The translations under genes were made by a program, and so were the position numbers. Of a stretch of 57,317 nucleotides of DNA, positions 8,627-56,976 are shown in pieces. This DNA is from Giesbergeria sp. (lineage in GTDB: Bacteria > Pseudomonadota > Gammaproteobacteria > Burkholderiales > Burkholderiaceae_C). How positions within the stretch are numbered: the stretch's first letter is position 1; each line of letters begins with the position of its first letter. Location: contig JAGNYI010000018.1 of assembly GCA_017985015.1 (NCBI GenBank), positions 1 through 57,317 on the forward strand. Reading direction: 5' to 3'. Below the pieces are notes generated by a model. The model was not told the origin of the DNA. It did no database searches and saw nothing but the letters and a program-made list of their open reading frames with translations.

Positions 8627-8670
8627 TTGGCCTCTAGCGCTTACTTGAAAAGCATCTTTAGCTATGAATT
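8627..8670 (+). repeat. Dispersed palindromic element (copy between ilvA and cobS)
   Basis: ATTGGCCTCTAGCGCTTACT followed by a degenerate AAGCATC..TTTAGCTATGAATT. It fills almost the whole 50-base ilvA-cobS gap, and its right end supplies the ATG of cobS. The consensus seen across the window is GGCCTCTAGCGCTTA, a short spacer, then TAAGCGCTAGCAGCTAT. Confidence 0.75.
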
Positions 8671-9509
8671 TCGAAGCATCGGTGCACCAGGCGCTGCGCC
8701 ACTACCTGCTGGCGCTGCAGTTTTTCACCCGCATTCCGATCACGGGCCGTCTGGCAGAGTGGGTAGGGTTCAGTCCGTCCATGCTGCGTGCCGCCAGCAC
8801 GCACTTTCCTGGTGTCGGCTGGGTGGTAGCGGCCTGCGCCTGCAGCGTGTACGCCCTGCTGTACCTGAGCCTCGGCCCGGCACCCGCCACATCCTGGGTG
8901 GCGGCAGCATTGAGCACGGCCGCCACCGCGGTGCTCACCGGTGGTTTTCATGAGGACGGCCTGACCGACGTTGCCGACGGCCTCGGGGGCAGCCAGGAGC
9001 GCGAGCGCGCACTCGACATCATGAAGGATTCACGCATTGGCGCCTTTGGAGCCATGGCGCTCGCCCTCACGCTGCTCACCAAGCTGGGACTGCTGGCCCT
9101 GCTCGGTCAACGCGGCCTCTCGCCGGCGCTGGCGGCCTTGGTGGGTGCGCATGTGTTCTCGCGCTTTCTGCCGCTGCTGCTGGTGCGCGCCATGGTGCAT
9201 GTAGGTGACACCGCGCGCTCCAAGAGCAAACCACTGGCCGATCAGATCACGCGATCCCAGCTGGCCGGTGCAGCAGCATGGTGTTTTTTCCCGCTGGCGA
9301 TCATTGCGCTGGGCGAAGGTCTGGGCTTCGTGCTGCTTGGCGTGTTATTCAGCGCAGTGGCCGCAGCCCTCCTGGCGCGCTGGTTCTGGCAGCGTCTGCA
9401 GGGCTTTACCGGCGACTGTCTGGGTGCTGTTCAGCAGTTGAGCGAAATCGGGTTCTATCTCGGGGCGGCGCTGGCCCTGGGGCCACTGGTGCGCGGAGCC
9501 AGCGTGTGA
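8664..9509 (+). CDS. cobS: Adenosylcobinamide-GDP ribazoletransferase (cobalamin synthase)
   Basis: A 281-residue integral inner-membrane enzyme that joins adenosylcobinamide-GDP with alpha-ribazole (or its phosphate) in the last part of B12 nucleotide-loop assembly. The signature G-G-F-H-E-D-G-L-T-D-V-A-D-G (about 93-106) and the following M-K-D-S-R-I-G-A-F-G are clear, and there are several hydrophobic segments after residue 120. The ATG lies inside the right end of a dispersed repeat and has no recognisable ribosome site, so translation may depend on coupling with ilvA or on an atypical signal. The gene overlaps cobC by 4 bases (GTGA). No other corrin genes are in the window, which suggests a salvage or split pathway. 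Confidence 0.95.
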   Translation: MNFEASVHQALRHYLLALQFFTRIPITGRLAEWVGFSPSMLRAASTHFPGVGWVVAACACSVYALLYLSLGPAPATSWVAAALSTAATAVLTGGFHEDGLTDVADGLGGSQERERALDIMKDSRIGAFGAMALALTLLTKLGLLALLGQRGLSPALAALVGAHVFSRFLPLLLVRAMVHVGDTARSKSKPLADQITRSQLAGAAAWCFFPLAIIALGEGLGFVLLGVLFSAVAAALLARWFWQRLQGFTGDCLGAVQQLSEIGFYLGAALALGPLVRGASV

Positions 9510-10093
9510 CGGTGCGCCGCCTGTGGCTGGTGCGGCACGCGCCGGTGCTGGCGCCGCCCGGAACCTGCTACGGCCAGCTGGATTTGTCGGCCGATTCGCA
9601 AGCCACCGCCCAATGCGCGCAGAAGCTCGCCGCCGTATTGCCGAGCTCACTGGTGTTACAACACTCAACGCTACAAAGATGTGAGCTGCTTACACAATCA
9701 CTACAAGCGCTGCGCCCCGATTTGACCTTAAAACCGGACGCGCGCCTGCGTGAAATGGATTTTGGCCGCTGGGAAGGCCGCCTTTGGGCCGAACTGCCAC
9801 GCAACGAGATCGACGCCTGGGCGATGCAACTGGCGCATTGCGCACCCGGCGGGGGCGAGCCGCTGACGGCCATGCTGGCTCGCGTGGCGCATGCGCTGTC
9901 CGAGGCACGCGAAACTGCCCGCCAAACCGGCCAGGATGTGGTCTGGATTGCGCACGCCGGCGTGGCGCGCTGCGTGCAATGGCTGCTGGGGGAGCGCGCC
10001 AGGGCCGGCCTGGCGCCCTGCGCTCTCCACTGGCCGCGCGAAGCGCCTGCCCCCGGCCAATGGGCGCACTACGCGCTTAGAACGTGTTCATGA
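9506..10093 (+). CDS. cobC: Alpha-ribazole-5'-phosphate phosphatase-like histidine phosphatase
   Basis: A 195-residue protein of the phosphoglycerate-mutase-like histidine phosphatase family. The start is the GTG at 9506, which overlaps the cobS stop by 4 bases; longer upstream reading is the cobS shadow. Catalytic motif L-V-R-H-A-P is at residues 8-13, L-Q-R-C supplies the second Arg, L-R-E-M-D-F-G-R-W-E-G carries the acidic residue, and W-I-A-H-A-G-V the second His. Role: dephosphorylates alpha-ribazole phosphate, or the cobalamin phosphate product, in nucleotide-loop assembly, consistent with coupling to cobS. Residues around the L-Q-R-C motif are encoded by an AT-richer segment resembling the dispersed repeat. 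It ends one base before the convergent chemoreceptor gene. Confidence 0.9.
   Translation: MTVRRLWLVRHAPVLAPPGTCYGQLDLSADSQATAQCAQKLAAVLPSSLVLQHSTLQRCELLTQSLQALRPDLTLKPDARLREMDFGRWEGRLWAELPRNEIDAWAMQLAHCAPGGGEPLTAMLARVAHALSEARETARQTGQDVVWIAHAGVARCVQWLLGERARAGLAPCALHWPREAPAPGQWAHYALRTCS
9669..9715. repeat. Repeat-like segment inside cobC
   Basis: GCTACAAAGATGTGAGCTGC, then TTACACAATCACTACAAGCGCTG. It resembles the reverse orientation of the dispersed element (GCTACNAAANATAGCTGC, spacer, AAGCGCT) and is AT-richer than the rest of cobC. The match is partial, so this copy is less certain than those in murG, murD and the NUDIX-MBL gene. Confidence 0.45.
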
Positions 10094-10094
10094 T

Positions 10095-11762: not shown

Positions 11763-11931
11763 GAATTTCCTTGTGGGGTTCCCGGCCCGAACTTCGATGG
11801 ATGATCCAAGCTCGAACATTTGTTTACATTCATACTTGGTTCAAGCATAGCCAAGACGAAGGCCCACCGAACTCCGGAAAGACCCTCTGATCACATACGC
11901 GCCGCAGAATATTGCGAGGCATCACCATGGC

Positions 11932-14054
<2,123 letters not shown>

Positions 14055-14078
14055 GGCGCGAGTGTACGCCCACCGACT

Positions 14079-14255
14079 TCACCGAAGGCGATCGAGAAAG
14101 AGCACCGCAAAAAAGCCCAGTCCCGCGAGCACGGTCCATTTCAGGATCACGAGGCCCAAGCGCCGATAACGAAGGTCTCCGGTGGTGGCGTAGAAGGCAA
14201 ATGCAACAGCACAGGCGAGCAGCAGCACAATGGCCAGGCCGCGAACAATGCCCAT
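14079..14255 (-). CDS. Small hypothetical membrane protein co-transcribed with lpxC
   Basis: A 58-residue protein starting at the ATG at 14255, one base after the lpxC stop (TGAGATG). Two hydrophobic segments are visible: about residues 6-22 (L-A-I-V-L-L-L-A-C-A-V-A-F-A-F-Y) and 36-54 (L-V-I-L-K-W-T-V-L-A-G-L-G-F-F-A-V-L-F). They are separated by a short basic loop with R-Y-R-R, and the C-terminus is D-R-L-R. I do not recognise a named family. Its tight spacing to lpxC argues for translational coupling and a possible envelope role, which is inference only. It ends 25 bases before the thiC riboswitch. Confidence 0.75.
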   Translation of the reverse strand: MGIVRGLAIVLLLACAVAFAFYATTGDLRYRRLGLVILKWTVLAGLGFFAVLFLDRLR

Positions 14256-15402: not shown

Positions 15403-15449
15403 GACCCCGATAGAAGACACGAACGCCTGAAACTGGCGCGGCCCCATAT

Positions 15450-15522
15450 CAACAGACGCCGCGCAAGGGCCGCCCCACCGCACTGGCGTCGTCCCCTTCC
15501 CGCGAAGCGAGAGAAGGGGGAT
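15450..15522. repeat. REP-like intergenic repeat, copy 1 (after ftsZ)
   Basis: Contains GCCGCGCAAGGGCCGCCCC, CACCGCACTGGCGTCGTC and a hairpin CCCCTTC..GAAGGGG directly downstream of the ftsZ stop. Related copies lie near 35487, 40633 and 57095. The hairpin has no T-run, so it is not a standard intrinsic terminator, although it could protect the mRNA end. Confidence 0.65.
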
Positions 15523-21373: not shown

Positions 21374-22434
21374 GCTGCCAGCTCCTCGCAGGCGGCCACC
21401 ACGGCGTCCGTCGCATTCATCTTTTGCATCTTTTTGGCGTCTAGCGCTTTACTCATAAGCACAGTTCGCTCCATATTTCGTAGCATATCGGCCAGCCGCT
21501 CGGGGCTCAGTTCGCTCTGGGGCAGCAGCCAGCCCCCTCCGGCATCCACCAGGAAGCGCGCATTCGCCGTCTGGTGGTCGTCCACCGCCGAAGGAAAGGG
21601 CACGAAGATCGCTGCAGCACCGATGGCGGCAATCTCGGTCACGGTGCTGGCCCCCGCGCGGCAGACGATGAGGTCGGCCTCGGCAAAGGCACGGGCGGGG
21701 TCGTCAATGAAAGGCGTGAGCTCGGCCTCGACGCCCGCGGCAGCGTAGTTGGCGCGCAGGCGTTCGATCTGCGCCGCGCCACTTTGGTGCAGTACGCGCG
21801 GGCGCTCATGCGGCGAGAACAGCGCCAGCGCCTGGGGCACCACGTCGTTGAGTGCCTGCGCGCCGAGGCTCCCCCCCACCACCAGCAGGCGCAGCGGGCC
21901 GCTGCGCCCGGCAAAACGCTCGGCCGGGCCGGGCTGGTGCGCAAACGCCGCACGCAGCGGATTGCCGATCCATTCGGCTTTGCCCAGCACGCCGGGGAAA
22001 GCGGTGAACACGCGATCGGCCACGCCGGCCAGAACACGGTTGGCGAGGCCGGCCACGGAGTTCTGCTCGTGCAGCACGAGCGGCTTGCCGGCCAACACGG
22101 CCATCATCCCGCCCGGAAAGCTGATGTAACCGCCCAGCCCCACCACCACATGGGGCCGCACGCGCCGCACCACGGCCAAGGCCTGCCAGAAGGCGCGCAG
22201 CAGGCGCAGCGGCAGCAGGGCCAGCGTGAGCGCGCTCTTGCCGCGCACACCGCCAAAGGAAATGGTCTCGAGCGCGAAGCCCTGGGCCGGCACCAACCGC
22301 GCCTCCATGCTCGCAGGGGCGCCCAGCCAATGCACGCGCCAGCCACGTTCTCGCAAGGCGTCGGCCACGGCCAGGCCCGGGAAGATGTGACCGCCGGTGC
22401 CGCCGGCCATGATGAGTGCGCACTTGCTGCTCAT
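21370..22434 (-). CDS. murG: UDP-N-acetylglucosamine--undecaprenyl-PP-MurNAc-pentapeptide GlcNAc transferase
   Basis: The peripheral membrane GT28 enzyme making lipid II. From the ATG at 22434 it has 354 residues. The donor loop [15 protein letters not shown] and H-E-Q-N-S-V-A-G are present, as is the C-terminal [11 protein letters not shown] with [16 protein letters not shown]. The frame stays open 26 codons upstream to an ATG at 22512, but those codons are the product of a local duplication and do not resemble MurG. Near the C-terminus, residues [15 protein letters not shown] are encoded by a copy of the dispersed palindromic element. Confidence 0.96.
21431..21488. repeat. Dispersed palindromic element inside murG
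   Basis: TTTTTGGCGTCTAGCGCTTT, then ACTCATAAGC and a diverged right part with TAGCATAT. The core TAGCGCTTTACTCATAAGC is identical over 19 bases to the intergenic copy upstream of pyrC (56941-56959), so this is a true copy lying within the 3' part of murG in an open frame. Confidence 0.8.
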
Positions 22435-23782: not shown

Positions 23783-25647
23783 CGCCCTCCCTCCAAGGTC
23801 TGGCCAGCGTCCAGGGCGCGCTCACGCACGATGGCACAGAACATCTCGCCGCGCTGTACGTAGCTGTCAAACATGTCGAAGCTGGAGCATGCGGGCGACA
23901 GCAGCACGGCGTCACCCGCTGCAGCGCGCTGGGCGGCGACTTCCACGGCTTCGTCCAGCGCGCCTGCGCCCAACAGTGGCACGCCGGCGGCCTCCAGCGC
24001 CGCTCGGATCTGCGGGGCGTCGCGCCCGATCAGCACCACCGCCCGCGCGTGGCGCGCAACCGGTGCGGCGAGCGGCGAAAAATCCTGACCCTTGCCCAGG
24101 CCACCCAAGATCACCACCACGCGGCGCTCGGCGCCCAAGCCCGAAATGGCCGCCACGGTGGCGCCCACGTTGGTGCCCTTGCTGTCGTCAAAGTATTCGA
24201 CGCCATCGATCAGCGCCACCGACTCCAACCGGTGCGGCTCGCCGCGATATTCGCGCAGGCCGTACAGCATGGGCCCGAGCGAACAGCCCGCCGCTTGCGC
24301 CAGCGCCAGTGCAGCCAGGGCGTTCACCGCGTTGTGCCGGCCGCGAATGCGCAGGGCGTCGGCGGGAATCAGGCGCTGGATGAACAATTCCTCAGGCTCA
24401 GCCTGCGCCGCGGCGCTGCGTCGAGTGCTGCGCTTGCGCGTCTCATCGGCCTCCTGGGAACGCACCAGCCAAGCCATGCCATTGACGTTTTCAATGCCAT
24501 AGTCCCCCGGGCGCTGGGGCATGTCGCCACCAAAGGTGATGCAGTCGCGGGTGATCAGCTTGGCCGGCTTGCCGCGCACGCCGGCTTCGGGCGATACCAC
24601 GGCACTGGCCGCAGCGTGCATGCGCATTACGACCTCGTCTTCGCGGTTGAGCACCATCAGGCCGGCGTTGCCAAAAATGCGCGCCTTGGCGGCGGCGTAG
24701 GCCGCCATGTCGCCGTGCCAGTCGAGGTGGTCCTGAGTGAGGTTGAGGACCGTGGCAGCGCTGGGCTCAAACGGCGCGGGCGCGTCAAGCTGGAAGCTTG
24801 AGAGTTCGAGTACCCAGACCTCGGGCAGCGTGCCGGCGTCGATGTGCTGCGCCAGCGTATCGAGCAGGGCCGGGCCAATGTTGCCGGCCACCGCCACACT
24901 GGCACCGCTGCGCTCCACCAGCACCCCGGTCAGCGCGGTGACCGTGGTCTTGCCGTTGGTCCCCGTGACGGCCAGCACGCGTGGGGCGTAGCCACAGGCG
25001 CTGCGCAGCGCGGCCAGGGCCTCGGAATACAAGCCTAATTCGCCTCCAGCGCTTACCCCATCTGCGTTAGAAGCTCCTATTACAGGAGCAATCTCAGCCG
25101 GGCTGAGGCCGGGCGAGCGCAGCACCGCGTGCAGGCCCAGGCCGCTCACCAGCGCCGCATCAAAGGCGCCGGGGACGAACCGGGCTTGCGGCAGCTCGGC
25201 ACGCAGGCGCGCCAGCAGCGGCGGCTCGGCCCGGGTGTCGGCGACGGTGACCTCGGCCCCGCAGCGCGCGCACCAGTGCGCCATCGACAGGCCGGAGATC
25301 CCCAGGCCCAGCACCAGCACCGAACGCCCGGCCAGCAGGCCACGCACCGCATCTGCAGGCAGCGCGGCGCTGGGCACAGGGGCTTCGTCGGCTACGGCCA
25401 GGGCATCGGCGGCAGCGGGCGCCGCATCGTCGGGCGCCGCCGCATCGGCACTGCGCATGTCGCTCCACATGCGCGCGACGTACACCGCCGCATCGCGTGC
25501 CGCATTCAAGGGCGCGGGCACCGCCGGCCCGGCGTCCAGCAACGCGGCAGAAGCTGGCGCGGCGTCCTGCAGGGGCAGGTCAGCCGCCCCCAGCACGGGC
25601 TCGGCGGGGTCTGCGGGGTATTGCGGAAGCGCGGGCGTGTCGTTCAT
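23779..25647 (-). CDS. murD: UDP-N-acetylmuramoylalanine--D-glutamate ligase with long N-terminal extension
   Basis: At 622 residues from the ATG at 25647 (which overlaps the mraY stop by 4 bases), this is far longer than the usual 440 to 450. Residues 1 to about 103 are rich in Ala, Pro and Asp and look disordered, with one basic patch [12 protein letters not shown]. The Rossmann start [11 protein letters not shown] is at 110-120, and the ATP loop T-G-T-N-G-K-T-T-V follows. [11 protein letters not shown] and G-G-L-G-K-G-Q-D-F complete the Mur signatures. A dispersed-repeat copy encodes [16 protein letters not shown] in a surface region before the ATP domain. A second low-complexity insert ([10 protein letters not shown]) lies in the central domain. 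Confidence 0.96.
25036..25092. repeat. Dispersed palindromic element inside murD
   Basis: AATTCGCCTCCAGCGCTTAC, then CCCATCTGCGTTAGAAGCTC and CTATTACAGGAGCAA. It follows the consensus GCCTCTAGCGCTTA, spacer, GCGCTAGCAGCTAT through its whole length, with an additional small hairpin GCTCCTATTACAGGAGC. The reading frame is uninterrupted. Confidence 0.75.
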
Positions 25648-28243: not shown

Positions 28244-29730
28244 ACCGCCTCCTCCCGAAGCTGCAGCGCGGCACGGGCGTGTTCCAGATCGGAGAACGGC
28301 CGCTTGACGCCAGCGATTTCCTGCCAGGCCTCGTGGCCTTTGCCGGCAATCAGCACCACGTCGGCAGGTGCAGCCTGTGCCAGCACCTGCGCAATGGCGG
28401 CCGCACGGTCGGGCTCGGCGCGTACCGTGGCACCGGCGATGGTGCCCAGGAGGATCTGGTGCAGGATGACCACCGGGTCTTCACTGCGCGGGTTGTCGCT
28501 GGTGACCACCACGCGATCAGCGTGGTGCTGCGCTGCGGCGCCCATGAGGGGGCGTTTGCCGGCGTCGCGGTCGCCGCCGCAGCCAAACACGCACCACAGA
28601 GCGCCGCCGCGCGCCAGAGCCAGCGGACGCAGTGCCTGCAAGGCCTTTTCCAGCGCGTCGGGTGTGTGGGCGTAATCCACCGCGACCAGCGGCTGGCCGG
28701 GCAGGAGCAGGCGCTCCATGCGCCCCGGCACCGGGCCGAGGCGCTCGCAGGCACGCACAGCCGCATCCAATGGCACGCCCAGCGCGCGCATGGCGCCGAT
28801 CACACCGAGCAGGTTGGAGATGTTGTACTGGCCGATGAGCGCGGTCTGCAGAGGCAATTGCTGCTCGCCCTCTCTGATGAGACATTGCAGACCTTGCGGG
28901 CCCAGCGCGATTTCGCGTGCGCACAGGCGCGCCGGGACGGTTTGCGACACCGTCCACAGGTCCAGCCCAGCGGCCTTCGCCGGGGCCTGCAGGTCCGCGC
29001 CGGCCGCGTCGTCGATGTTGAGCACGGCGGCGCGCAGCCCCGGCCAGGCAAACAGCGCGCGCTTCGCCGTCAAGTAGGCCTCCATGCTGCCGTGGTAATC
29101 GAGGTGGTCCTGCGTGAAATTGGTAAACACCGCCACAGCGATCCGCATGCCCGCCAGCCGGTGCTCAGCCAGACCAATCGACGAGGCCTCAATGGCACAG
29201 GATTTCGCGCCCGCATCCACCAAGGCCCGCAAACCGCGCTGCAAGCGCACCGGGTCGGGTGTGGTCAGGCCGGTTTCTTGCAGTGCATCCGGGAAACCTA
29301 TACCCAAAGTACCTACCAGCGCGCATGGAGCAAGCGCAGGAAGCTCGCAATTCGATAGCGCCTGTGCGAGCCAGCAGGCGCTGCTGGTCTTGCCGTTGGT
29401 GCCGGTGAAGGCCACGACTTGCAAGGCCTCTGAGGGCGAGCCAAACCAGGCTGCGGCCAGCTCGCCGGTGGCGGCTTTGAGGTTTGCAAGCAAGGCCACA
29501 TCGGCACCCGCGACATCAAACGCCTCTGCGCCCACGGCCTCGACAAGGCAGGCGCTGGCACCGCGCGTGCGCGCATCGGACAGATGCGCACGCGCGTCGG
29601 CAGCCGCGCCCGGCCAGGCAATGAAGGCGTCGCCCGGCGCAATGCGGCGGCTGTCGATCTGCAGCATGCCGGTGCTGCGCTCGCGCAGCCAGGCCAGGGC
29701 CTCTGCGGTGGTGTGCAGTACGCGCGTCAC
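28240..29730 (-). CDS. murE: UDP-MurNAc-L-Ala-D-Glu--meso-diaminopimelate ligase
   Basis: A 496-residue Mur ligase. It begins with GTG at 29730, overlapping the ftsI stop by 4 bases. The ATP loop F-T-G-T-N-G-K-T-S is at 108-116, T-Q-D-H-L-D-Y-H marks the central domain, and the D-N-P-R-S-E-D-P motif indicates meso-DAP rather than lysine as substrate, consistent with dapF in this window. Residues around 126-140 (S-N-C-E-L-P-A-L-A-P-C-A-L-V) are unusual just after the ATP helix and are encoded by a segment that resembles the dispersed element. Confidence 0.96.
   Translation of the reverse strand: MTRVLHTTAEALAWLRERSTGMLQIDSRRIAPGDAFIAWPGAAADARAHLSDARTRGASACLVEAVGAEAFDVAGADVALLANLKAATGELAAAWFGSPSEALQVVAFTGTNGKTSSACWLAQALSNCELPALAPCALVGTLGIGFPDALQETGLTTPDPVRLQRGLRALVDAGAKSCAIEASSIGLAEHRLAGMRIAVAVFTNFTQDHLDYHGSMEAYLTAKRALFAWPGLRAAVLNIDDAAGADLQAPAKAAGLDLWTVSQTVPARLCAREIALGPQGLQCLIREGEQQLPLQTALIGQYNISNLLGVIGAMRALGVPLDAAVRACERLGPVPGRMERLLLPGQPLVAVDYAHTPDALEKALQALRPLALARGGALWCVFGCGGDRDAGKRPLMGAAAQHHADRVVVTSDNPRSEDPVVILHQILLGTIAGATVRAEPDRAAAIAQVLAQAAPADVVLIAGKGHEAWQEIAGVKRPFSDLEHARAALQLREEAV
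29301..29362. repeat. Repeat-like segment inside murE
   Basis: TACCCAAAGTACCTACCAGC, then GCGCATGGAGCAAGCGCAGG and AAGCTCGCAATTCGATAGCG. It is aligned with the dispersed element (CCTCTAGCGCTTATG, spacer, AAGCGCTAGAAGCTC, ATAGC) but more diverged than the copies in murG and murD. Confidence 0.45.
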
Positions 29731-34770: not shown

Positions 34771-34784
34771 GAAAATATTAGTGT

Positions 34785-34838
34785 TTTTGGCCTCTAGCGC
34801 TTGATGAGTATGCGCTAGCAGCTATCTATTTAATAGTA
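34785..34838 (-). repeat. Dispersed palindromic element between hslV and hslU
   Basis: TTTTTGGCCTCTAGCGCTTG, then ATGAGTATGCGCTAGCAGCT and ATCTATTTAATAGTACTT. A full-length copy with both half-palindromes and the AT-rich AGCTATC..ATAG tail. It occupies most of the 84-base gap in an otherwise tight two-gene operon. Confidence 0.85.
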
Positions 34839-34854
34839 CTTGTCACACACCCGC

Positions 34855-35418: not shown

Positions 35419-35486
35419 AGGGCCGGCAGATGGGGGCAGCCGTTCGTTTTACAAGCGCACGACGATGCGAGCGCTGCCGACTATCA

Positions 35487-35660
35487 GCAACCGCCGCGCA
35501 AGGGCCTAGGCCGGCCGCGCCGCCCCGCCGCGCTGGCGGTGTCCCCCTTCCCGCATCGCGAAGCGAGAGAAGGGGCTGAGGGCCGCAGCTCCAAGCCTGC
35601 CTGCGCAGGCTTGGACGGCTCCGAAGGGCTTGCGCCTCTGGCGCTTGCTCGGAGTGGCAC
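35487..35660. repeat. REP-like intergenic repeat, copy 2, with adjoining hairpins
   Basis: GCCGCGCAAGGGCC, GCCGCCCCGCCGCGCTGGCG and GCATCGCGAAGCGAGAGAAG match the other copies. Beyond it lie a perfect hairpin CCAAGCCTGC/GCAGGCTTGG (35591-35614) and CTCCGA..TCGGAG with GCGCC/GGCGC (35620-35655). This fills the 261-base gap between hslV and the STAS gene; no ORF is supportable here. Confidence 0.65.
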
Positions 35661-40554: not shown

Positions 40555-40632
40555 GGACATGCCACCTTGTTTTTCAGCGCTATGCGCACTATGCACCGCC
40601 CACAAGCCCACGCAAAGGGCGCAGTCCAGACC

Positions 40633-40713
40633 AGCGGCCACCGTGCAAGGGCCGCCCCGCCGCACCGGTGGCGTCCCCTGAGGGGGAAGGCGCCGAAGGC
40701 GACTCAGGGGGCA
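40633..40713. repeat. REP-like intergenic repeat, copy 3
   Basis: GACCAGCGGCCACCGTGCAA, GGGCCGCCCCGCCGCACCGG and a terminal hairpin CCCCTGAG..CTCAGGGG. It lies between the DUF484 stop and xerC. The first part matches copy 4 near 57095. Confidence 0.65.
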
Positions 40714-43128: not shown

Positions 43129-44805
43129 ATGACCCGCCCTACCCAGTGGCTGCACCCGCAGCGCGAACCCGTCCCCCCGCTTTCGGCCGCCACCGTCTTG
43201 CTGGTGCGCGACGCGCCGGATGCCCCAGGCGGGCTGCAGGTGCTGATGACGCGGCGTTCGGCCAAGGCGAGTTTTGCGCCAGGTGCCTACGTTTTCCCCG
43301 GCGGCGGCATTGACGCGCTGGACTCTGCCCCAGCCACGCACGCCGCGTGCGCGCGCCGCCCCGGCCAGTCGGAGGAGCAGCTCACGCAAGCCGTTGCCGC
43401 CATCCGAGAAAGTTTTGAAGAGCTTGGCATCCTGCTGGCACGCCACGCCGATGGCCGACCGGCCGGCGCTGCCGACATCGCTGCGCTCGATCGCCACGCA
43501 CCGTTTGCCGCGCAATGCGCCGCGCGGGGCCTGCGCTTGGCGGCCGACGAGGTCTTTGTGCTGGCGCGCTGGACGGGCGACCGCGACCTGCCGCGGCGCT
43601 TCGACGTGCCCTTCCTCATCGCCCGCATGCCCGAAGGCCAGACACCCGTGGCCGACGAAGCCGAGCAGTTCGAGCCCGTGTGGGTGCGCCCGCAAGAGGC
43701 GCTGGAACGCCACGCGGCGGGCAGCTTCTTCATGATCTTCCCGACCATCCGCACCTTGGAGCGCCTGGCGAAGTTTGGCGGCGCCGATGCCGTACTGGCA
43801 GCCTGCGCCAGCGGCACGCCCTTGTGGACCAGCTGCCCGCGCGCCGGTCTGCTGACGGGCAAGGAAGCGCGCTACATGGAAGACGAAATGCCCTACGGCG
43901 AGCTGGCCCTGGTCTGCCCAGATGGCCAGATCGTGCACCCGCTCGACTGGCAGAGCGAACGTGCCGTGCCGCTATTGAAGAACCTGCAGCGCCTGACCGC
44001 CCCCAACCCCGGCGTGATGACCGGCCCAGGCACCAACAGCTACCTGGTGGGCGAGCCGGCCACGGGCTACATCGCCATCGACCCCGGCCCGGCCGATTCG
44101 CAGCACCTGGAAAAACTCTGGCGCGCAGCCGGCGGCGACATCCGCATGATCGTCTGCACCCATTCGCACCCCGACCATTCGCCAGGCAGCCAGCCGCTGC
44201 AGGCACTGTGCGTGCAATCGGGTCGCGGCGCCCCGCCTATCCTGGGCCTGGCCTCAGCGCCCACAGCACGCGCACACAGCCAGTTCACGCCTGAGCGAAC
44301 GCTACAGAATGAAGAGCTGCTAACGCTTACTGGACAAGCGCTAGAGGGAGAAATTACCCATACTTTGCAAGTGGTGCACACCCCCGGCCACGCGGCCAAC
44401 CACCTGTGCCTGCTGCTGGTGGAAGACGCTCTGCTGTTTTCTGGCGACCACATCCTGAACGGCAGCACGACGGTAATTGACCCGCCCGACGGCAACATGG
44501 CCGATTACCTCGATTCGCTCGACCGGCTGGACGCGCTGTGCGCCGAGCAAGGCGTGGAGTTCATCCTGCCCGCACACGGCTACGTGCTGGGCGATGCGCG
44601 CGGCGCGATTGCCCGACTCAAGGCCCACCGGCTGGCGCGCGAAGCGAAAGTGATTGCCGCGCTGGAGGCCCTGCCCGGCGGCAGCATGGAAGACTGGGTG
44701 GCGCATGCCTACGCCGACGTGCCCCCGCGCATCTGGCCGGTGGCGCAGCGCTCGCTGCTGGCGCACATTGAGCGCATTCGCGCACTCGGGCCCGGGAATG
44801 ATTGA
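43129..44805 (+). CDS. NUDIX hydrolase fused to metallo-beta-lactamase-fold hydrolase
   Basis: A 558-residue fusion starting at ATG 43129, 31 bases after the GST stop. The N-terminal half (about 18-265) is NUDIX-like: Y-V-F-P-G-G-G-I-D and then R-E-S-F-E-E-L-G-I, the catalytic helix of the Nudix box, with a long insertion between. The C-terminal half (about 285-550) is an MBL fold: M-T-G-P-G-T-N-S-Y-L-V-G, the metal site T-H-S-H-P-D-H-S-P-G, V-H-T-P-G-H-A-A-N-H, F-S-G-D-H-I-L-N-G and P-A-H-G-Y-V. The MBL part resembles the LACTB2-type group. Substrates are unknown. A dispersed-element copy encodes L-Q-N-E-E-L-L-T-L-T-G-Q-A-L-E-G in the MBL half. Confidence 0.9.
   Translation: MTRPTQWLHPQREPVPPLSAATVLLVRDAPDAPGGLQVLMTRRSAKASFAPGAYVFPGGGIDALDSAPATHAACARRPGQSEEQLTQAVAAIRESFEELGILLARHADGRPAGAADIAALDRHAPFAAQCAARGLRLAADEVFVLARWTGDRDLPRRFDVPFLIARMPEGQTPVADEAEQFEPVWVRPQEALERHAAGSFFMIFPTIRTLERLAKFGGADAVLAACASGTPLWTSCPRAGLLTGKEARYMEDEMPYGELALVCPDGQIVHPLDWQSERAVPLLKNLQRLTAPNPGVMTGPGTNSYLVGEPATGYIAIDPGPADSQHLEKLWRAAGGDIRMIVCTHSHPDHSPGSQPLQALCVQSGRGAPPILGLASAPTARAHSQFTPERTLQNEELLTLTGQALEGEITHTLQVVHTPGHAANHLCLLLVEDALLFSGDHILNGSTTVIDPPDGNMADYLDSLDRLDALCAEQGVEFILPAHGYVLGDARGAIARLKAHRLAREAKVIAALEALPGGSMEDWVAHAYADVPPRIWPVAQRSLLAHIERIRALGPGND
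44299..44356. repeat. Dispersed palindromic element inside the NUDIX-MBL gene
   Basis: ACGCTACAGAATGAAGAGCT, then GCTAACGCTTACTGGACAAG and CGCTAGAGGGAGAAATTA. Reverse orientation of the element (TAGCTGCTAGCGCTT, spacer, AAGCGCTAGAGGCCAATTT). It is AT-richer than the surrounding gene and lies between two conserved MBL motifs in an open frame. Confidence 0.75.
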
Positions 44806-44917
44806 TACCCCCCTGAGCCGCTATGCAGCCGGCGCGGCCCTTGCACGGCGGCCGCTGGCTTAAGCCGCGCCAGTTTTATACGCAGCGAGTGATGCATAGC
44901 GCACTGAATCATTGAAC

Positions 44918-45706
44918 ATGCCAAGTCTCCCCACCCCTCCAAACAACACCGAGCGCCTCGCCAAGCGCGTGGCGGCCGAGCATGGCCTCTCGCGCAGCGC
45001 AGCGGAGCAGTACATCGAAGGCGGCTATGTCAGCGTCGATGGGGCACTGGTCGAAGTCCCTGGCGCCCGCGTGGCGCCGCAGCAGCAAGTGGTGCTGGCC
45101 AAGGATGCCAGCCTCGATGCACTCGAACCCGTGACGCTGCTGCTGCACAAGCCGCCGGGCTATGAAGCGGGCCTGGGGCTTGACGCCGCTGCGGCCTCGC
45201 ACGGCAGCCGCAGCCAGGGCGCGCCTGCAGCGCTGAGCCTGATCGGAATGTCCACCCACATGGAAGGCGACGCTGCCGACACCCGCGTGCTGCTGCGCCA
45301 CTTTCGCGCCTTGGAATGCTTCACGCCGCTGCCCACACCGGCCAGCGGGCTGGTGGTCTACACCCAGGACAAGCGCATCGCGCGCAAGCTGGCCGAGGAC
45401 ATCGAGTCGCTGGAGCAGGAATGCATCGTCGAGGTGGCGGGCCAGATTGCCGACAACGGGCTCAAAAAGCTCTGCCACGGGCTCTCGTTCAACGGCCGGC
45501 CGCTGCCGCCCATCAAGGTGAGCTGGCAGAACGAAACCCGGCTGCGCTTTGCCTTGAAGGGCATCCGCCCCGGGCAGATTCCTTCGATGTGCGAGGCCGT
45601 GGGCCTGCGCGTGGTAGCGATCAAGCGCATCCGCATCGGGCGCGTGCCGCTGGCCAAGGTGCCGGAGGGCCAGTGGCGCTATCTGCAGGCGTGGGAAAAA
45701 TTCTGA
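44918..45706 (+). CDS. RNA pseudouridine synthase-like protein (RluF/RsuA type) lacking the catalytic Asp
   Basis: A 262-residue protein from ATG 44918. An S4 RNA-binding domain comes first (about 11-60, L-A-K-R-V-A-A-E-H-G-L-S-R-S-A-A-E-Q-Y-I), then a pseudouridine synthase fold starting at L-L-L-H-K-P-P-G-Y. In active enzymes the motif is G-R-L-D-x-x-S-x-G-L. Here it reads T-P-L-P-T-P-A-S-G-L, so Pro139 stands where the catalytic Asp should be, and the later K-E-Y-R-V motif is E-Q-E-C-I-V. The rest of the fold is intact (G-I-R-P-G-Q-I-P-S-M-C, R-I-R-I-G-R-V-P-L). Probably an RNA-binding protein without synthase activity; no clear ribosome site. Confidence 0.85.
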   Translation: MPSLPTPPNNTERLAKRVAAEHGLSRSAAEQYIEGGYVSVDGALVEVPGARVAPQQQVVLAKDASLDALEPVTLLLHKPPGYEAGLGLDAAAASHGSRSQGAPAALSLIGMSTHMEGDAADTRVLLRHFRALECFTPLPTPASGLVVYTQDKRIARKLAEDIESLEQECIVEVAGQIADNGLKKLCHGLSFNGRPLPPIKVSWQNETRLRFALKGIRPGQIPSMCEAVGLRVVAIKRIRIGRVPLAKVPEGQWRYLQAWEKF

Positions 45707-45765
45707 CGCTATTGAAAAAATAGCTGCTAGCGCAATGCGTATAAGCGCTGGAGGCCGATTTCCCC
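45707..45765. repeat. Dispersed palindromic element after the pseudouridine-synthase-like gene
   Basis: ACGCTATTGAAAAAATAGCT, then GCTAGCGCAATGCGTATAAG and CGCTGGAGGCCGATTTCCCC. Full copy in reverse orientation, starting immediately at the stop codon of the upstream gene. Confidence 0.85.
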
Positions 45766-45797
45766 TGAAATTTCTGCCTGCACCGCGATAAAAGTGT

Positions 45798-46168
45798 GAA
45801 GCGCGCCGATAAGCCGGATTCTGTGCACCCGAACCTCCTTGCGAAGGCCGGGCGTGACCGCCATTACTCTGGGCCGGGTGTCGCCACCACGGCTCGGTGC
45901 TACCTACCCGCCAACTCTGCGGAACCACATCAACGTTGGCCTACTTGGTATTGCTGCGCGTAGAGATTGCCCGTTTCACCCGAAGCGGGCGCCGCCCGCT
46001 TCGGGTGAAACACCCTCCGTGGCTTGCAGCCTGCTTCGACTCGTCTCTGTTGCTCTGATCCTCACCTCACGGTGGGCAGCCGTTAGCTGCTACGCTGTCC
46101 TGTGCAGTCCGGACGTTCCTCCAGTGCCTGGTTTCCCAGATTGCACCAGCGGCGGTCTGGCGCGCTTC
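45798..46168 (-). ncRNA. rnpB: RNase P RNA (M1 RNA), bacterial type A
   Basis: The catalytic RNA of RNase P, which matures tRNA 5' ends. The P1 helix is exact: GAAGCGCGCC at the 5' end (46168-46159) pairs with GGCGCGCTTC at the 3' end (45807-45798). Core conserved segments are present: GAGGAACGTCCGGACT near 46124, CCACGGAGGGTG, AGTAATGGCGGTCACGC and CCGGCTTATCGG near the 3' end. A very stable hairpin (GTTTCACCCGAAGCGGGC with its complement, 45962-46010) fits P12. About 371 bases, as expected. Plus-strand reading through this region is not coding. Confidence 0.97.
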
Positions 46169-48876: not shown

Positions 48877-50139
48877 ATGACCCATCGCGCCCGCGCCCCC
48901 CGCTCCACCCGCTGGGTGGAGGGCAACGACTTCGAGCTGCTGGAAAACGGAGAAGACTTCTTTCCCCGCGTGTTCGCCGCCATCGAGGCCGCCGAACGTC
49001 AGGTGTGGCTGGAAACCTTCATCCTGTTCGACGACAAGATCGGTCGTGCGCTGCATGCCGCCCTGCTTGGCGCGGCGCAGCGGGGCGTATGCGTGCATGT
49101 GCTGGTCGACGGTTTTGGCTCGCCTGACCTGCCCGAGCGCTATGTCGGCGATCTGGTCGAGGCGGGCGTGCAGTTCCGCACTTTCGATCCGGGCCAGCGT
49201 ATTTTTGGCCAGCGCCTCAATGTGCTGCGGCGCATGCACCGCAAGATCGTGGTGGTCGACGGCGCGCTGGGCTTCATCGGTGGCATCAATTATTCGGCCG
49301 ACCATGTGGCCGATTTCGGACCCGAGGCCAAGCAGGACTACGCCGTGCAGGTGCGTGGCCCCATCGTCGCGCAAATGCACCGCTTCGTGCAGAGCGCGGT
49401 GCACACCGACCGGCGCCAGAAGGTTCCCGAGTCGCCAGAGTCGCCCGACCCCCAGACCTTGCCGCAAGCTGGCGCAGCAGGCGCCATCTTCGTCACGCGC
49501 GACAACCACCGCCACAGGAGCGATATCGAACGCCATTACCGAATCGCGCTGCGCAGCGCGCGCCAGCGGGTCGTGATCGCCAACGCCTACTTCTTCCCCG
49601 GCTACCGCTTCATCCGCGAGATGCGCCGCGCCGCGCGGCGCGGGGTGGACGTGCGCCTGATTTTGCAGGGCCAGCCCGACATGGCCATCGTCAAGACCGC
49701 CGCCAGCCTGCTCTACGAGCACTTGTCGGGCGCGGGAGTGCGCATCTTCGAGTACTGCGACCGGCCGCTGCACGGCAAGGTGGCCCTGGTGGACGACGAG
49801 TGGTCCACCGTGGGTTCAAGCAACCTCGATCCGCTGAGCTTGGCGCTGAATCTGGAAGCCAACGTCATCATCCGCGACCGCCCCTTCAACGCCCACCTGC
49901 ACGAGCGGCTCACCGATCTCATGGACAACAGCTGCCGCAGCATCGAGTTGCCCGCGAAGAGCCGGTGGGCGCGGCTGCGCCTGCTGCGCAGCTATTTGGT
50001 GTTTCACCTGATGCGCTGGTTCCCCACCTGGGTGGGCTGGCTGCCACGCCACGAACCCACCATTGCGCTGGCACAGGCGGCCAAGGAGACGGGGCAGGCC
50101 GAAGCCGGCGAGACCGAGCGCTCGCACGCCGCAGTCTGA
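48877..50139 (+). CDS. clsB: Cardiolipin synthase B-like phospholipase D family protein
   Basis: A 420-residue PLD-superfamily enzyme. The start is ATG 48877 behind GGAGG; an earlier start would overlap the EEP gene. Two HKD motifs are complete: H-R-K-I-V-V-V-D-G (about 124) and H-G-K-V-A-L-V-D-D (about 298), each followed by G-G-I-N or G-S-S-N-L-D. W-V-E-G-N-D-F-E-L-L-E-N-G at the start fits the ClsB group, which transfers phosphatidyl groups to make cardiolipin or phosphatidylglycerol at the inner membrane. Gene order with the neighbours supports ClsB rather than ClsA or ClsC. Confidence 0.93.
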   Translation: MTHRARAPRSTRWVEGNDFELLENGEDFFPRVFAAIEAAERQVWLETFILFDDKIGRALHAALLGAAQRGVCVHVLVDGFGSPDLPERYVGDLVEAGVQFRTFDPGQRIFGQRLNVLRRMHRKIVVVDGALGFIGGINYSADHVADFGPEAKQDYAVQVRGPIVAQMHRFVQSAVHTDRRQKVPESPESPDPQTLPQAGAAGAIFVTRDNHRHRSDIERHYRIALRSARQRVVIANAYFFPGYRFIREMRRAARRGVDVRLILQGQPDMAIVKTAASLLYEHLSGAGVRIFEYCDRPLHGKVALVDDEWSTVGSSNLDPLSLALNLEANVIIRDRPFNAHLHERLTDLMDNSCRSIELPAKSRWARLRLLRSYLVFHLMRWFPTWVGWLPRHEPTIALAQAAKETGQAEAGETERSHAAV

Positions 50140-50152
50140 AGGAAAGCCGCGC

Positions 50153-51226
50153 ATGGCGCATCCAAGGCCCACCACGCCACAGGCGCCGACCGCATCCACT
50201 GCGCCGTCGCGCTTGCGCCCCGGGCGCGGTGCCGCGCGCACCGGCGCACCTCGGCGCGCTTCTCAGGGGGCGGGGCTGACTTCATTGCAACAAAAACCCT
50301 GGTGGCCCTGGCTGACGCGCGGCCTGGCAGGCGCATTCTTCGTGCTGGTGGCCTCGCTCATCGCCCACCAGGCGCGCAGCGTGCACTGGCCCGCCGTCTG
50401 GCAGGCGGTGCTGGCGCTTCCGGCACGTGTGCTTTGGGCGGGCGCGGCGCTGGCCTTGCTGAGCCACTTCACCTACGGCAGTTTTGAATGGATCGGCCGG
50501 CACGTCACCGGCCACACCCTGGGTCGCGCCACCACGCTGGGCATCGCCATGACCAGCTATGGCTTCACCCTCAATCTCGGCTCGGTGATTGGTGGCGTGG
50601 GCGTACGCTACCGGCTCTACAGCCGACGCGGCGTGGAACCCGGAACGATTGCCCAGGTGGTGGCCACCAGCATCCTGACCAACTGGATCGGCTACCTGCT
50701 GCTGGCAGCCGCCATCCCCTGGCTCTGGGTGCCACCGGCCGTGTTTGGCTGGAGCGCCAGCGCCGCGCAGTGGCGCATGGGCGGCGCCCTGCTGGCCCTG
50801 GCTCCGCTGGCCTACCTGGCGCTGTGCCTGGTGCGAGAGGGGCGGCCGCTGGCGCTGCGCGGACACCGCTTTGCCCTGCCGCGCTGGCCGCTGGCGCTGT
50901 GGCAGGTGGTGGTGTCGTGCGCCAACTGGATGCTGATGGGCGCGGCGCTGTGGGTGGTGCTGCAGGGCCAGGTGGCCTACCCGGCGGCCATCGCCACCGT
51001 AATGCTGGGCGCGGTGGCCGGGCTGGTGCTGCGCGTGCCCGCCGGTCTGGGCGTGCTGGAATCGGTGGGCGTGGCGCTGCTGACCATGGACACGCTCTCG
51101 AAGACCGACGTACTGGCCGCGCTGCTCGCCTACCGGGCGCTGTACTACTTTGTGCCGCTGGTGCTGGCGGCACTGGCGCTTGCGACAGCCGAGTTGTTGT
51201 TGCACGGAAAAAAACCAACGAAATAG
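50153..51226 (+). CDS. ybhN: YbhN/UPF0104 family integral membrane protein
   Basis: A 357-residue polytopic membrane protein with an N-terminal basic, Pro-rich tail of about 50 residues (from ATG 50153). It is of the type related to the flippase half of MprF. The family mark S-Y-G-F-T-L-N-L-G-S-V-I-G-G-V-G-V-R-Y-R-L-Y is present, and R-V-P-A-G-L-G-V-L-E-S-V-G follows. It has about eight hydrophobic segments. It is the third gene of the ybhP-clsB-ybhN-like operon, so lipid movement across the membrane is plausible. The C-terminus ends at a dispersed repeat. Confidence 0.9.
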   Translation: MAHPRPTTPQAPTASTAPSRLRPGRGAARTGAPRRASQGAGLTSLQQKPWWPWLTRGLAGAFFVLVASLIAHQARSVHWPAVWQAVLALPARVLWAGAALALLSHFTYGSFEWIGRHVTGHTLGRATTLGIAMTSYGFTLNLGSVIGGVGVRYRLYSRRGVEPGTIAQVVATSILTNWIGYLLLAAAIPWLWVPPAVFGWSASAAQWRMGGALLALAPLAYLALCLVREGRPLALRGHRFALPRWPLALWQVVVSCANWMLMGAALWVVLQGQVAYPAAIATVMLGAVAGLVLRVPAGLGVLESVGVALLTMDTLSKTDVLAALLAYRALYYFVPLVLAALALATAELLLHGKKPTK

Positions 51227-51270
51227 GCCTCTAGCGCTTATTGGTAAAGCGCTGATAGCTATCAAATTTG
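51223..51270. repeat. Dispersed palindromic element after ybhN
   Basis: AATAGGCCTCTAGCGCTTAT, then TGGTAAAGCGCTGATAGCTA and TCAAATTTGG. It begins at the ybhN stop codon (the TAG of the repeat supplies the stop) and has both half-palindromes. Confidence 0.85.
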
Positions 51271-51361
51271 GTAATTCTTCGCTATCCACTGGCGGGACAG
51301 CCGGCGCCGCCGTATCATGCGGCCCCCTGCTGCACCTGCCCGATCGCTACGGGCCGCGCCC

Positions 51362-54117: not shown

Positions 54118-54121
54118 CTTT

Positions 54122-55000: not shown

Positions 55001-55060
55001 TCGGGCTCCACAAAAGAGTCGTGCAAAGGTCTGTGAAAGGTGCGGCGCCGGGCGCCGTTT

Positions 55061-55816
55061 TCAAGGGCGAGGCGGGCGAAACACCGTGGCGTCATCATAA
55101 AAGCCGGGCGCTTCGTTGCCGGCCCACCACCCTGGGATACCCAGCAGCGGCAGTGGGACAAATGGTTTGGTGGCGAGCCACGCGGGATCGAGTTGCTGCG
55201 CCAGTCTGGAATCCTGATTTGCTTCTGAATTGATAGCATCGTACGTAATCAGTACGTGCGCAGTGATCCCTTTTCTTGGTTGAACCAGTTGTTCCATCAG
55301 CGCATGGCCAAGCAGCGTGACCCGGGCGCTGCGCCAGAGGGTCCGGTGCTGAACGAACAGCGCCTGCCAGTCGCGCGCGAGCAGCGCCTGCCACAGAGCG
55401 GACGGCGCTTGCAGCAGCGCGCCGCTCTCGTCCAGGAGTGTGCAGGCATCGCGCAGCGGCCCCCGCACCGGGCGCACGCCCTGCAACGCCATCGCACCAG
55501 CCTGTAGCTGGTTCAAGCGCTGCTTGGCTTGGCCAAAGCGCTGCCACACCAGGCCGCTAAAGAAGTCGTGCAGGTTGCTGCGCGTGGGCACGCAGCCGGT
55601 GTCGAAAATGAACTGCTCATAGGCCACACCTGCCGGCAGCTCCGCCTGGGGCACGAAACCCACCGGCGCGCCTTGGGCCGCGTTCAACGCCTCGTGCACC
55701 GGTGTTCCACTGGCGACGGCACCCGCCAGCGGCACGCCGAGCTCGCGCCAGGGCGCGAGCCAGGGGGCTTGCCAATCCACATCGGAAAACGCTGCAGGCC
55801 GCGTTCGGCTGGCCAT
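55061..55816 (-). CDS. DUF3025 domain-containing protein
   Basis: A 251-residue soluble protein of unknown function. Recognisable DUF3025 marks are Y-E-Q-F-I-F-D-T-G-C-V-P-T-R-S-N-L-H-D-F-F-S-G-L-V-W (about 66-91, split here by position), and A-H-V-L-I-T-Y-D-A-I-N-S. The P-L-L-G-I-P-G-W-W segment is near the C-terminus. It lies 18 bases after the pyrC stop and 60 bases before htpX on the same strand, so the three may form one transcript. Confidence 0.88.
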   Translation of the reverse strand: MASRTRPAAFSDVDWQAPWLAPWRELGVPLAGAVASGTPVHEALNAAQGAPVGFVPQAELPAGVAYEQFIFDTGCVPTRSNLHDFFSGLVWQRFGQAKQRLNQLQAGAMALQGVRPVRGPLRDACTLLDESGALLQAPSALWQALLARDWQALFVQHRTLWRSARVTLLGHALMEQLVQPRKGITAHVLITYDAINSEANQDSRLAQQLDPAWLATKPFVPLPLLGIPGWWAGNEAPGFYDDATVFRPPRP

Positions 55817-55834
55817 CGGCAGGGCGGGCAGATA

Positions 55835-56902
55835 TCAGCCTTGCACTCGCCAGGCCAGCGCCTCTCCGGCGCGCAAGGGCTTGAGCTCGGCCTCACCAAA
55901 GGCAAAACTGTCCGGTGGTGTCCAGCTCTCTCGCACCAGGCTGAGGGTGCCGCTGTTGCGCGGCAGGCCGTAGAAGGCCGGGCCGTGAAAGCTGGCAAAG
56001 CCCTCCAGCTTGTCGAGCGCGCCGGCGGCATCGAACGCCTCGGCGTACAGCTCCATCGCCGCGTGCGCCGTGTAGCAGCCGGCGCAACCGCTGGCATGCT
56101 CTTTCAGATGCGCAGGGTGCGGCGCACTGTCGGTACCGAGGAAGTAGCGGTCGCTCCCGCTGGTAGCGGCCTGCACCAGCGCAAGGCGGTGCTCCTCGCG
56201 CTTGAGCACCGGCAGGCAGTAATAGTGCGGGCGGATGCCGCCCGTAAAGATGGCATTGCGGTTGTAGAGCAGGTGGTGCGCGGTGATGGTGGCGGCGGTA
56301 AAGCGCCCGGCCCCCTGCACGTACTGCGCGGCCTCGCGGGTGGTGATGTGCTCGAAAACGATTTTCAGCTCGGGGAAATCGCGCCGCAGCGGCATGAGCT
56401 GCTGCTCGATGAACACAGCTTCGCGGTCGAACAGGTCGATGTCGGGGCTGGTGACCTCGCCGTGCACCAGCAGCGGCACGTCGGCGCGCTGCATCGCTTC
56501 GAGCGTACGGTAGGTCTTGCGCGGGTCGGTCACTCCCGCATCGCTGTTGGTAGTGGCGCCCGCCGGATACAGCTTGACCGCGACGACGCCGGCCGCCTTG
56601 GCGCGGGCAATCTCCTTCGGCGGCAGGTTGTCGGTGAGGTAGAGCGTCATCAGCGGCTGGAAATTCCTGCCTTCGGGGACTGCGGCAAGGATGCGCTGGC
56701 GGTACTCCAGCGCCTGCTGCGCCGTGGTCACCGGCGGGCGCAGGTTGGGCATGATGATGGCCCGGCCAAACTGGGCTGCCGTGTGCGGCACCACCGTCAG
56801 CAGCGCCTCGCCGTCGCGCACATGCAGGTGCCAGTCGTCGGGGCGCGTGATGGTGAGGGTTTGCGGAGCGGTGGAAGGGTTTGGCGCGGTCATGCGAGGC
56901 AT
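55835..56902 (-). CDS. pyrC: Dihydroorotase, class II
   Basis: A 355-residue zinc amidohydrolase forming dihydroorotate in pyrimidine synthesis. Motifs: [10 protein letters not shown] (metal His pair), [21 protein letters not shown] (carboxylated Lys), [15 protein letters not shown], and G-T-D-S-A-P-H (catalytic Asp). Length and motifs fit E. coli-type PyrC. The start may be ATG 56902 or ATG 56893; GGGACA lies close before the first. A dispersed repeat lies just upstream and may hold or disturb the promoter. Confidence 0.96.
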
Positions 56903-56919
56903 TGTCCCATCGTCCAGAA

Positions 56920-56976
56920 TACTATTTAAACGATAGCTGCTAGCGCTTTACTCATAAGCGCTAGAGGCCAATTTCA
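56920..56976. repeat. Dispersed palindromic element upstream of pyrC
   Basis: ACTATTTAAACGATAGCTGC, then TAGCGCTTTACTCATAAGCG and CTAGAGGCCAATTTCATT. The best-preserved copy; its core is identical to the one inside murG. It lies in the 284-base non-coding stretch 56903-57186, whose remainder (to about 57094) shows no gene. Confidence 0.9.

Follow-up and report, generated by a model that had tools for sequence, protein, structure and literature searches.

A bipartite palindromic element in intergenic gaps and within the reading frames of core genes of Giesbergeria and allied Comamonadaceae: a candidate DNA recognition site

Results

The window analysed here, meaning the whole stretch of 57,317 nt (65% G+C) from contig JAGNYI010000018.1 of Giesbergeria sp. 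(assembly GCA_017985015.1; closest named relative by MraY, Simplicispira hankyongi, at 95% identity), carries a palindromic element of ~66 bp that occupies intergenic gaps and also lies in frame within core genes. The analysis confirmed five copies in gaps and five matches in genes. The gap copies lie at the stop of an ilvA-like gene whose open reading frame (ORF) ends at 8613 (8613-8680, plus strand, 58.2 bits; this copy overlaps the start of a cobS-like ORF, 8664-9509), between hslV and hslU (34772-34841, plus, 63 bits), between the convergent rnpB and a pseudouridine-synthase-like gene with ORF end 45706 (45705-45773, minus, 62 bits), over the final bases of ORF 50063-51226 (51210-51278, plus, 59.9 bits) and on the upstream side of pyrC (56918-56986, minus, 70.4 bits), the ORF of which occupies 55835-56902 on the minus strand. 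Three in-gene copies are clear: one in the C-terminal codons of murG (coding minus; 21429-21486, plus, 17.9 bits, E 1.1e-4) and one in murD (coding minus; 25026-25089, plus, 27.5 bits, E 1.1e-7), both without added length, and one in a NUDIX-MBL gene (coding plus; 44298-44364, minus; 34.9 bits and E 5.5e-10 over 44298-44347, with the nhmmer match at 44301-44364). Two are weak, in a cobC-like gene (coding plus; 9667-9712, minus, 11 bits, E 0.015) and in murE (coding minus; 29316-29362, plus, 10.4 bits, E 0.024). The names ilvA, cobS, cobC, hslVU, pyrC and murE, the NUDIX part, and the restriction-modification partner mentioned below come from reading the sequences, without a family match.

These copies form one sequence family, far above chance. 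The profile used was made from seven intergenic copies by sequence alone and run on the window with filters off; five of the seven come from the window and so match by construction, but no in-gene copy contributed to the model. All five gap copies named in the initial annotation were recovered at 58-70 bits, and the murG, murD and NUDIX-MBL copies were matched by a profile that had not been trained on them. The cobC and murE matches, also proposed there as weaker copies, are stronger than their bit scores imply, since a position matrix that excludes in-gene copies scores them +21 (the best place in cobC) and +27 (the next different place in murE scores about -49). A further copy suggested at murC/ddlB had no match listed at E<=1. 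The exact core said to be shared by the murG and pyrC copies does exist, with 20 common bases, but the two copies face opposite ways, and the palindromic core itself accounts for much of the shared sequence. Against background, GGCCTCTAGCGCTTA with up to three mismatches occurs 10 times in the window versus 1.26 expected (maximum in 100 shuffles, 6), and TAAGCGCTAGCAGCTAT occurs 4 times versus 0.04 expected.

The consensus, AAATTTTAAGTAAAATTGGCCTCTAGCGCTTATCCAGTAAGCGCTAGCAGCTATCAATTTAATAGCA, runs from an A/T-rich flank through a GGCCTCTAGCGCTTAT box, ~6 variable bases, AAGCG and an AGCTAT box to an A/T-rich tail ending TAGC. Over 87 copies from the own genome (29-58% G+C), per-base conservation is 0.77-1.0 in CTAGCGC (0.94-1.0 in GCGC) and 0.92-1.0 in AGCTAT, while the right palindrome arm (GCGCTAG) drops to 0.57-0.79 from its third base onward; the palindrome is imperfect in that its right arm varies. 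RNAalifold predicted no base pair for the element alignment. In the main stem, 80.0% of cells were paired versus 79.2% with partners shuffled, a level reached by 16/500 shuffles (30/500 for the covariation score), and two further candidate helices did no better than shuffles, although G-U-compatible one-sided changes are present in the stem. RNA structure as the conserved trait was rejected on these tests, RNAalifold and three hand-named helices having given no clear covariation beyond shuffles; judging from the alignments, it is the sequence rather than pairing that seems to be conserved. An Rfam scan of the window returned only RNase P, TPP and Betaproteobacteria_toxic_sRNA, so that the element belongs to no Rfam family at gathering score.

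Copy number and placement were followed in 818,917 bases of the own genome (24% of it), in contigs picked for carrying many listed copies and with genes predicted by a codon-usage script. Genome-wide, the seven-copy model gave at least 150 copies at E 2.8e-19 to 8.1e-9 (the best 150 of 1222 candidates). In the sample, an iterated profile run at E<=1e-3 found 103 non-overlapping copies, of which 60 are intergenic, 32 overlap a predicted gene and 11 lie inside predicted genes, and the position matrix found 124 sites above zero, 15 of them in genes, where shuffling its columns left 0.45 on average; simple proportion would put the genome at ~500 copies. Element cores are among the top 9-12-mers of the sample, but they rarely stand alone: 47/48 occurrences of TAAGCGCTA and 68/72 of AGCGCTTA fall within whole elements, with 24/89 outside for the looser 8-mer TAGCGCTT. 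A short free uptake core was ruled out on these counts. Four in-gene copies cluster within ~8 kb (G000 C64, 24-33 kb; L135): an oxidoreductase has two of them, a DNA methylase gene (PF01555) has one, and the fourth lies in a neighbour without a Pfam match, which by reading of its sequence is a putative type III restriction partner. Three of these four are among the highest-scoring in-gene copies.

Copies favor gene ends. Among gaps of at least 40 nt, 23/62 convergent, 58/315 co-directional and 5/86 divergent ones are occupied, and the median copy in co-directional gaps begins 4.5 nt past the upstream stop codon, with 32 copies on the same strand as the genes and 26 on the opposite one. The position after stop codons, the occupancy of convergent gaps and the G-U-compatible changes would suit a transcript-level element, either a bidirectional terminator or a 3'-end stabilizer acting through a hairpin. 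We consider this quite improbable, given that no helix covaries clearly, that no pair is predicted, that the right arm varies and that in-gene copies occur in both orientations (4 on the gene's strand, 7 on the opposite one).

The strict pattern was present in 6/150 genomes of the family, the own genome included. Model counts at E<=1e-7 with strict filters, made for 45 genomes reached via named loci, gave matches in 27: 87 to at least 111 in genomes of Simplicispira, Acidovorax and Alicycliphilus; 47 and 109 in two metagenome-assembled genomes; 20-46 in two Curvibacter and two others; and 13-20 in four Polaromonas, with 0 and 2 in two more. On the same settings, three Paracidovorax, Delftia tsuruhatensis and Diaphorobacter caeni had 0 matches.

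The initial annotation held that internal copies add codons, as in-frame insertions recalling the Rickettsia palindromic elements. Those elements are palindromic repeats that occur in and between genes and are open in frame, and the present element is likewise palindromic, found in genes and gaps and open in frame. Comparison with orthologues, taken both within the genus and across other families of the order, does not bear out insertion in MurD, MurG and TrpF, where sequences with and without the motif agree in length and register. The MurD stretch is 30 residues long in 73/74 matched sequences and 31 in one, regardless of how far the DNA resembles the element (7/80 loci missed the residue motif and went uncounted, among them L078, which the alignment shows with extra residues). 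The TrpF stretch is 28 residues in 28/28 loci, a set that spans the own genome and other families of the order, and no printed MurG row contains a gap. On this basis in-frame insertion was rejected for these three proteins. In other genes, the AACS-like stretch has 52 residues in all genus rows and 51-54 outside; the NUDIX-MBL stretch has 39 in 17/18 genus rows and six more in the other, with five outside rows of varying length; and the MetG linker has 50-56 residues in bearing species, 45 and 47 in two relatives lacking the motif and 46-79 outside. In the FAD-oxidoreductase, after two partial rows were dropped, 13/14 complete genus rows, including two that lack the motif, have a loop of 52 residues, against 32 in two distant rows; insertion may fit here, yet relatives without the motif also have the long loop. 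Since orthologue lengths agree, the motif in most in-gene cases appears to sit on, and to overwrite, codons that already existed. Spread by gene conversion, which had also been raised, may play a part but is not needed to account for the data. An origin of the element in murD was dropped, since TrpF, MetG and others are unrelated proteins.

In bearing species the orthologous place is the gene's best window, at zero offset, in nearly every case: TrpF 13/13, NUDIX-MBL 14/15, FAD-oxidoreductase 10/11, AACS 10/10 and MetG 12/12. Other families rank that place 3 to 1802. Three relatives (G151, G153 and G156) were set as non-bearing in every gene after TrpF had been seen, a choice that is post hoc for TrpF and unchanged elsewhere; a search at E<=1e-14 found no copies in them, but none either in G154 and G162, which have the hslV-hslU copy. 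These relatives rank the place 1-4 in TrpF, 4-6 in NUDIX-MBL, 13-350 in the FAD-oxidoreductase and 45-141 in MetG, with clearly negative scores (-37 to -49 at the TrpF and NUDIX-MBL places), which reflects either prior resemblance or relics. In the mur genes, the place ranks first in 43/71 scored MurG orthologues and 25/44 genomes for MurD, and is the gene's best window in 18/75 murE orthologues. The more copies a genome has, the stronger its MurD resemblance (Spearman 0.54 over 44 genomes); three loci (L046, L070 and L076) score well though their genomes have none or one detected copy, representing either relics or variant families. Among the three Paracidovorax (L061, L086 and L099), none with detected copies, the MurG place ranks 1 in all, and MurD in two still has residues like those of the element (VAASA, VAAAA), encoded by G+C-rich codons; these traces are possible ghosts of a lost signal.

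Constraint reaches the third codon positions. In the strong columns of the element, third positions of bearing species match the consensus at 379/469 sites versus 0.26 expected (five genes), as against 19/77 (0.25 expected) in the three non-bearing relatives and 44/200 (0.24 expected) in other families; counts were pooled over related species without tree correction, and the expectation is each gene's own codon use. Third-position G+C in bearing species falls to 0.35-0.55 within the stretch versus 0.72-0.90 across the remaining gene, while the non-bearing relatives have 0.53-0.78 within it versus 0.61-0.69 elsewhere (none of them for AACS). It is very improbable, on this evidence, that the matches in genes arise by chance or from local codon bias and that the intergenic repeat alone is real. 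Such a reading could draw on the MurG and MurD places that score well in some genomes with none or one detected copy, and on the TrpF and NUDIX-MBL ranks of the non-bearing relatives, but it is contradicted by column-shuffled matrices (0.05 in-gene sites on average versus 15 real ones), by first rank at zero offset in nearly all bearing species and by the missing third-position signal in their non-bearing relatives.

One gap is compatible with insertion. The hslV-hslU site is filled in 15/17 genus genomes in which both genes were found (own included), and the gap measures 87 nt with the element versus 15 and 27 nt in the two empty genomes, which looks like insertion, or loss in those two. When these copies are aligned at their best matrix placement, 15/15 have AGCTAT unchanged, and identity, averaging 0.92 in strong and 0.53 in weak columns, follows the family profile (Spearman 0.68). 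Ahead of rnpB, element-like sequence was seen by eye in 8/11 genomes with rnpB found and not in G162, G158 and G154 (rnpB lay outside the stretch in five more), which shows turnover of the site. The length change at hslV-hslU, the possible insertion in the FAD-oxidoreductase, the rnpB turnover, the hundreds of copies, their bias to 3' ends and convergent gaps like that of repetitive extragenic palindromic (REP) sequences, and a Y1-transposase gene in the genome could all point to a selfish repeat, either REP-like or resembling miniature inverted-repeat transposable elements, that inserts near stop codons and is rarely tolerated within genes. This remains improbable: the MurD, MurG and TrpF copies add no length, the hslV-hslU boxes are kept and third positions constrained rather than decaying, the transposase gene lies ~4.35 kb from the nearest listed copy without flanking inverted repeats, and intergenic copies in the own genome are regularly spaced, as described next. 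The transposase gene itself is IS200-like, encodes 234 aa (PF01797) and lies at L147:4937-5641 (minus), with no adjoining element copies or inverted repeats.

Intergenic sites in the own genome have a spacing coefficient of variation (CV) of 0.657, versus 0.89-0.92 for random choice of gaps (0/2000 runs, at four gap thresholds), and in-gene sites are more remote from their closest intergenic site than positions drawn at random in genes (median 3977 versus 2192, p 0.023). The same matrix was applied to 400 kb each of two relatives: in G160 (55 sites, 13 in genes) in-gene sites are again distant from intergenic ones (6834 versus 2820, p 0.0055), and in G152 (62 sites, 6 in genes) intergenic CV is 0.714 versus 0.901 (49/2000 runs). 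Regular spacing and in-gene remoteness are each backed in two of the three genomes, and the mean interval between sites is 6-7 kb. The main contig of G160 (3,917,216 bases, of ~4.2 Mb in three contigs) holds every one of its 99 listed copies, at even density. No strand pattern along the chromosome was seen among the listed copies of G160 (best 99 of 150 scored) or G152 (best 51 of 150 scored), and replication-strand bias was set aside for these copies.

Gyrase binding has been proposed for bacterial interspersed mosaic elements, and the present element could similarly be bound by gyrase or by a nucleoid-associated or chromosome-organizing protein, with direct selection for regular coverage. 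Such a protein is the main rival to a DNA-uptake signal, though we judge it unlikely. Boxes kept without pair covariation, indifference to orientation, placement at 3' ends, regular spacing in two of three genomes and the even density along G160 speak for it, but a candidate protein is neither known nor found, the listed copies of G160 and G152 have no replication-strand pattern, and selection would have to sustain hundreds of sites and alter essential proteins.

Other features of the window include a TPP riboswitch (13935-14059), the RNase P RNA rnpB (45794-46168) and a Betaproteobacteria_toxic_sRNA (RF02278) above gathering score at 6885-6948 (plus), directly before the ilvA-like gene. A second dispersed repeat, G+C-rich and with core CGCAAGGGCC..CCGCCCCGCCGC, occurs at 15444-15497, 35457-35549, 40626-40679, 44830-44871 (inverted) and 57075-57167, measuring ~40-93 bp as listed; parts of it are also among the frequent 11-mers of the sampled genome.

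Discussion

The element is possibly (we would put the probability at about 0.4) a composite double-stranded DNA recognition site held by selection or biased uptake, with a long uptake-type signal as the lead. Under this proposal, a ~66-bp bipartite site would be maintained at the nucleotide level along the chromosomes of Simplicispira, Acidovorax and allied Comamonadaceae, and in-gene sites would have arisen by base substitutions on pre-existing codons, favored where no intergenic site lies nearby. The type IV pilus DNA-uptake machinery would read the site, fragments bearing it would enter and recombine more readily than others, and alleles with a closer match would spread through this uptake bias, as proposed for DNA uptake sequences (DUS) and uptake signal sequences (USS), only with a much longer bipartite site. 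We chose uptake because an uptake-type drive jointly explains the change in place, the coverage, the turnover among lineages and the reports of competence. Acidovorax temperans, Acidovorax facilis and Verminephrobacter eiseniae are naturally competent, cross-species transformation did not occur in the Acidovorax tested, and V. eiseniae showed signs of selective uptake when foreign DNA competed, according to the part of the source available to us (PMC4212676). In its fullest and somewhat less likely form, the proposal would have a first long, bipartite uptake signal in Comamonadaceae, 66 bp per 6-7 kb, put into core genes such as murD, murG, murE, trpF and metG where gaps are distant, with variants in Acidovorax/Simplicispira versus Polaromonas isolating species, and with DUF1010 and gcuF, discussed below, as fossils.

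Several observations weigh against an uptake signal. Third positions in the weak columns of bearing species also match the consensus above expectation (164/352 versus 0.26), G160 lacks regular intergenic spacing (CV 0.945, null 0.926) and the six in-gene copies of G152 are not unusually distant (p 0.41). The hslV-hslU copy is insertion-like, which point mutation alone does not yield. No short core occurs freely, unlike in DUS and USS, and known uptake motifs have cores of 9-12 bp, far shorter than ~66 bp (in part after the available sections of PMC4212676). The same sections report that two other Acidovorax gave no transformation, and absent cross-species transformation may stem from recombination barriers. 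Competence is known for A. temperans, A. facilis and V. eiseniae, whereas the element was counted here in other genomes. A crude motif look at 24% of the genome, which included no receptor search, gave only PilB/GspE-type and RadC matches and no competence gene or receptor. Furthermore, the codon and spacing evidence, uncorrected for the tree, suits any sequence-specific DNA-binding protein equally well.

In genes, DUS and USS are not known to entail a change of length. Like the present element, DUS (Neisseriaceae) and USS (Pasteurellaceae) are dispersed over genes and gaps, associated with terminators and split into lineage dialects, as far as the available parts of the sources describe them (PMC3630211, PMC2346458). 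The likeness at sequence level extends to strong over-representation of a dispersed motif and to in-gene copies absorbed by codon choice at constant length; the element differs in being a bipartite site of ~66 bp with no short core occurring alone. The small REP palindromes with GTAG and CGTC tags likewise lie near, and sometimes inside, ORFs in the available part of their description (PMC3733652), but our consensus lacks either tag, and a motif look at the examined 24% of the genome turned up a single Y1_Tnp gene with no copy beside it, hence no linkage to a REP-associated transposase. Another dispersed betaproteobacterial repeat, BRE, has some copies in coding sequence and hosts that include Comamonadaceae; by description, it averages 69% G+C and measures 75-91 bp in Bordetella, versus 29-58% and ~66 bp for the element (PMC3110155, in part). 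The second, G+C-rich repeat of the window recalls BRE by size and G+C and is likened to it by description only (same part of PMC3110155).

The core of the element has been listed before. In 2017, GCTTAT(N)5AAGCG in Acidovorax ebreus and ATAGCT(N)22CAAAAG in Polaromonas naphthalenivorans were given as potentially novel motifs (PMC5217627, Table 7; source available in part). The A. ebreus motif, with 114 copies (44 in convergent, 4 in divergent and 59 in co-oriented gaps, mostly within 50 bp of genes), was judged unlikely to act in transcription initiation, and its core, spacing and placement are the same as those of the present element (PMC5217627, same part). All 49 of the 49 occurrences of this pattern in 819 kb of the own genome fall inside profile matches. 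The Polaromonas pair shares ATAGCT and, going by this likeness, may be a dialect of the element; the 80 mur loci contained no occurrence of it. The available part of that listing (PMC5217627) does not deal with how the motif arose inside genes, nor with its constraint, spacing or function, and no description of the element's in-gene behavior turned up in the literature searched, which is no proof of absence.

Protein databases appear to hold traces of the element. The first third of Pfam DUF1010 (PF06231) reads like its translation (..LASSA..SASSY..). Of seven open frames over own copies, two match PF06231 positions 1-22 (E 0.015 and 0.027, below the Pfam cut-off) and five do not match, and the remaining two thirds of the profile are not element. 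An ORF at L323:1399-1689, flanked by dfrA12 and aadA2 in a class 1 integron, belongs to a cassette that we take to be gcuF; its protein matches PF06231 at 3.3e-28, and the element lies inside the ORF (matrix 54.8). A query with the pyrC copy drew 1758 plasmid records (among the 20 listed: two Comamonadaceae plasmids, 17 DUF1010 and one hypothetical protein), 798 Escherichia coli records (5/5 listed being DUF1010) and one record in the phage collection, and 22/23 non-comamonad rows among the matches listed are annotated DUF1010. This sequence evidence suggests that the gcuF cassette derives from an element-bearing comamonad.

The Pfam family carries a warning in its own right, namely that part of DUF1010 translates a DNA repeat, and the element could serve as a marker for the origin of the widespread integron cassette gcuF. 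If our proposal is true, it could also be the missing sequence basis of the selective DNA uptake reported for relatives of Acidovorax. A nucleotide-level signal would then have remodelled codons and residues of essential enzymes across a whole bacterial group, a clear case where DNA-level demands override codon preference.

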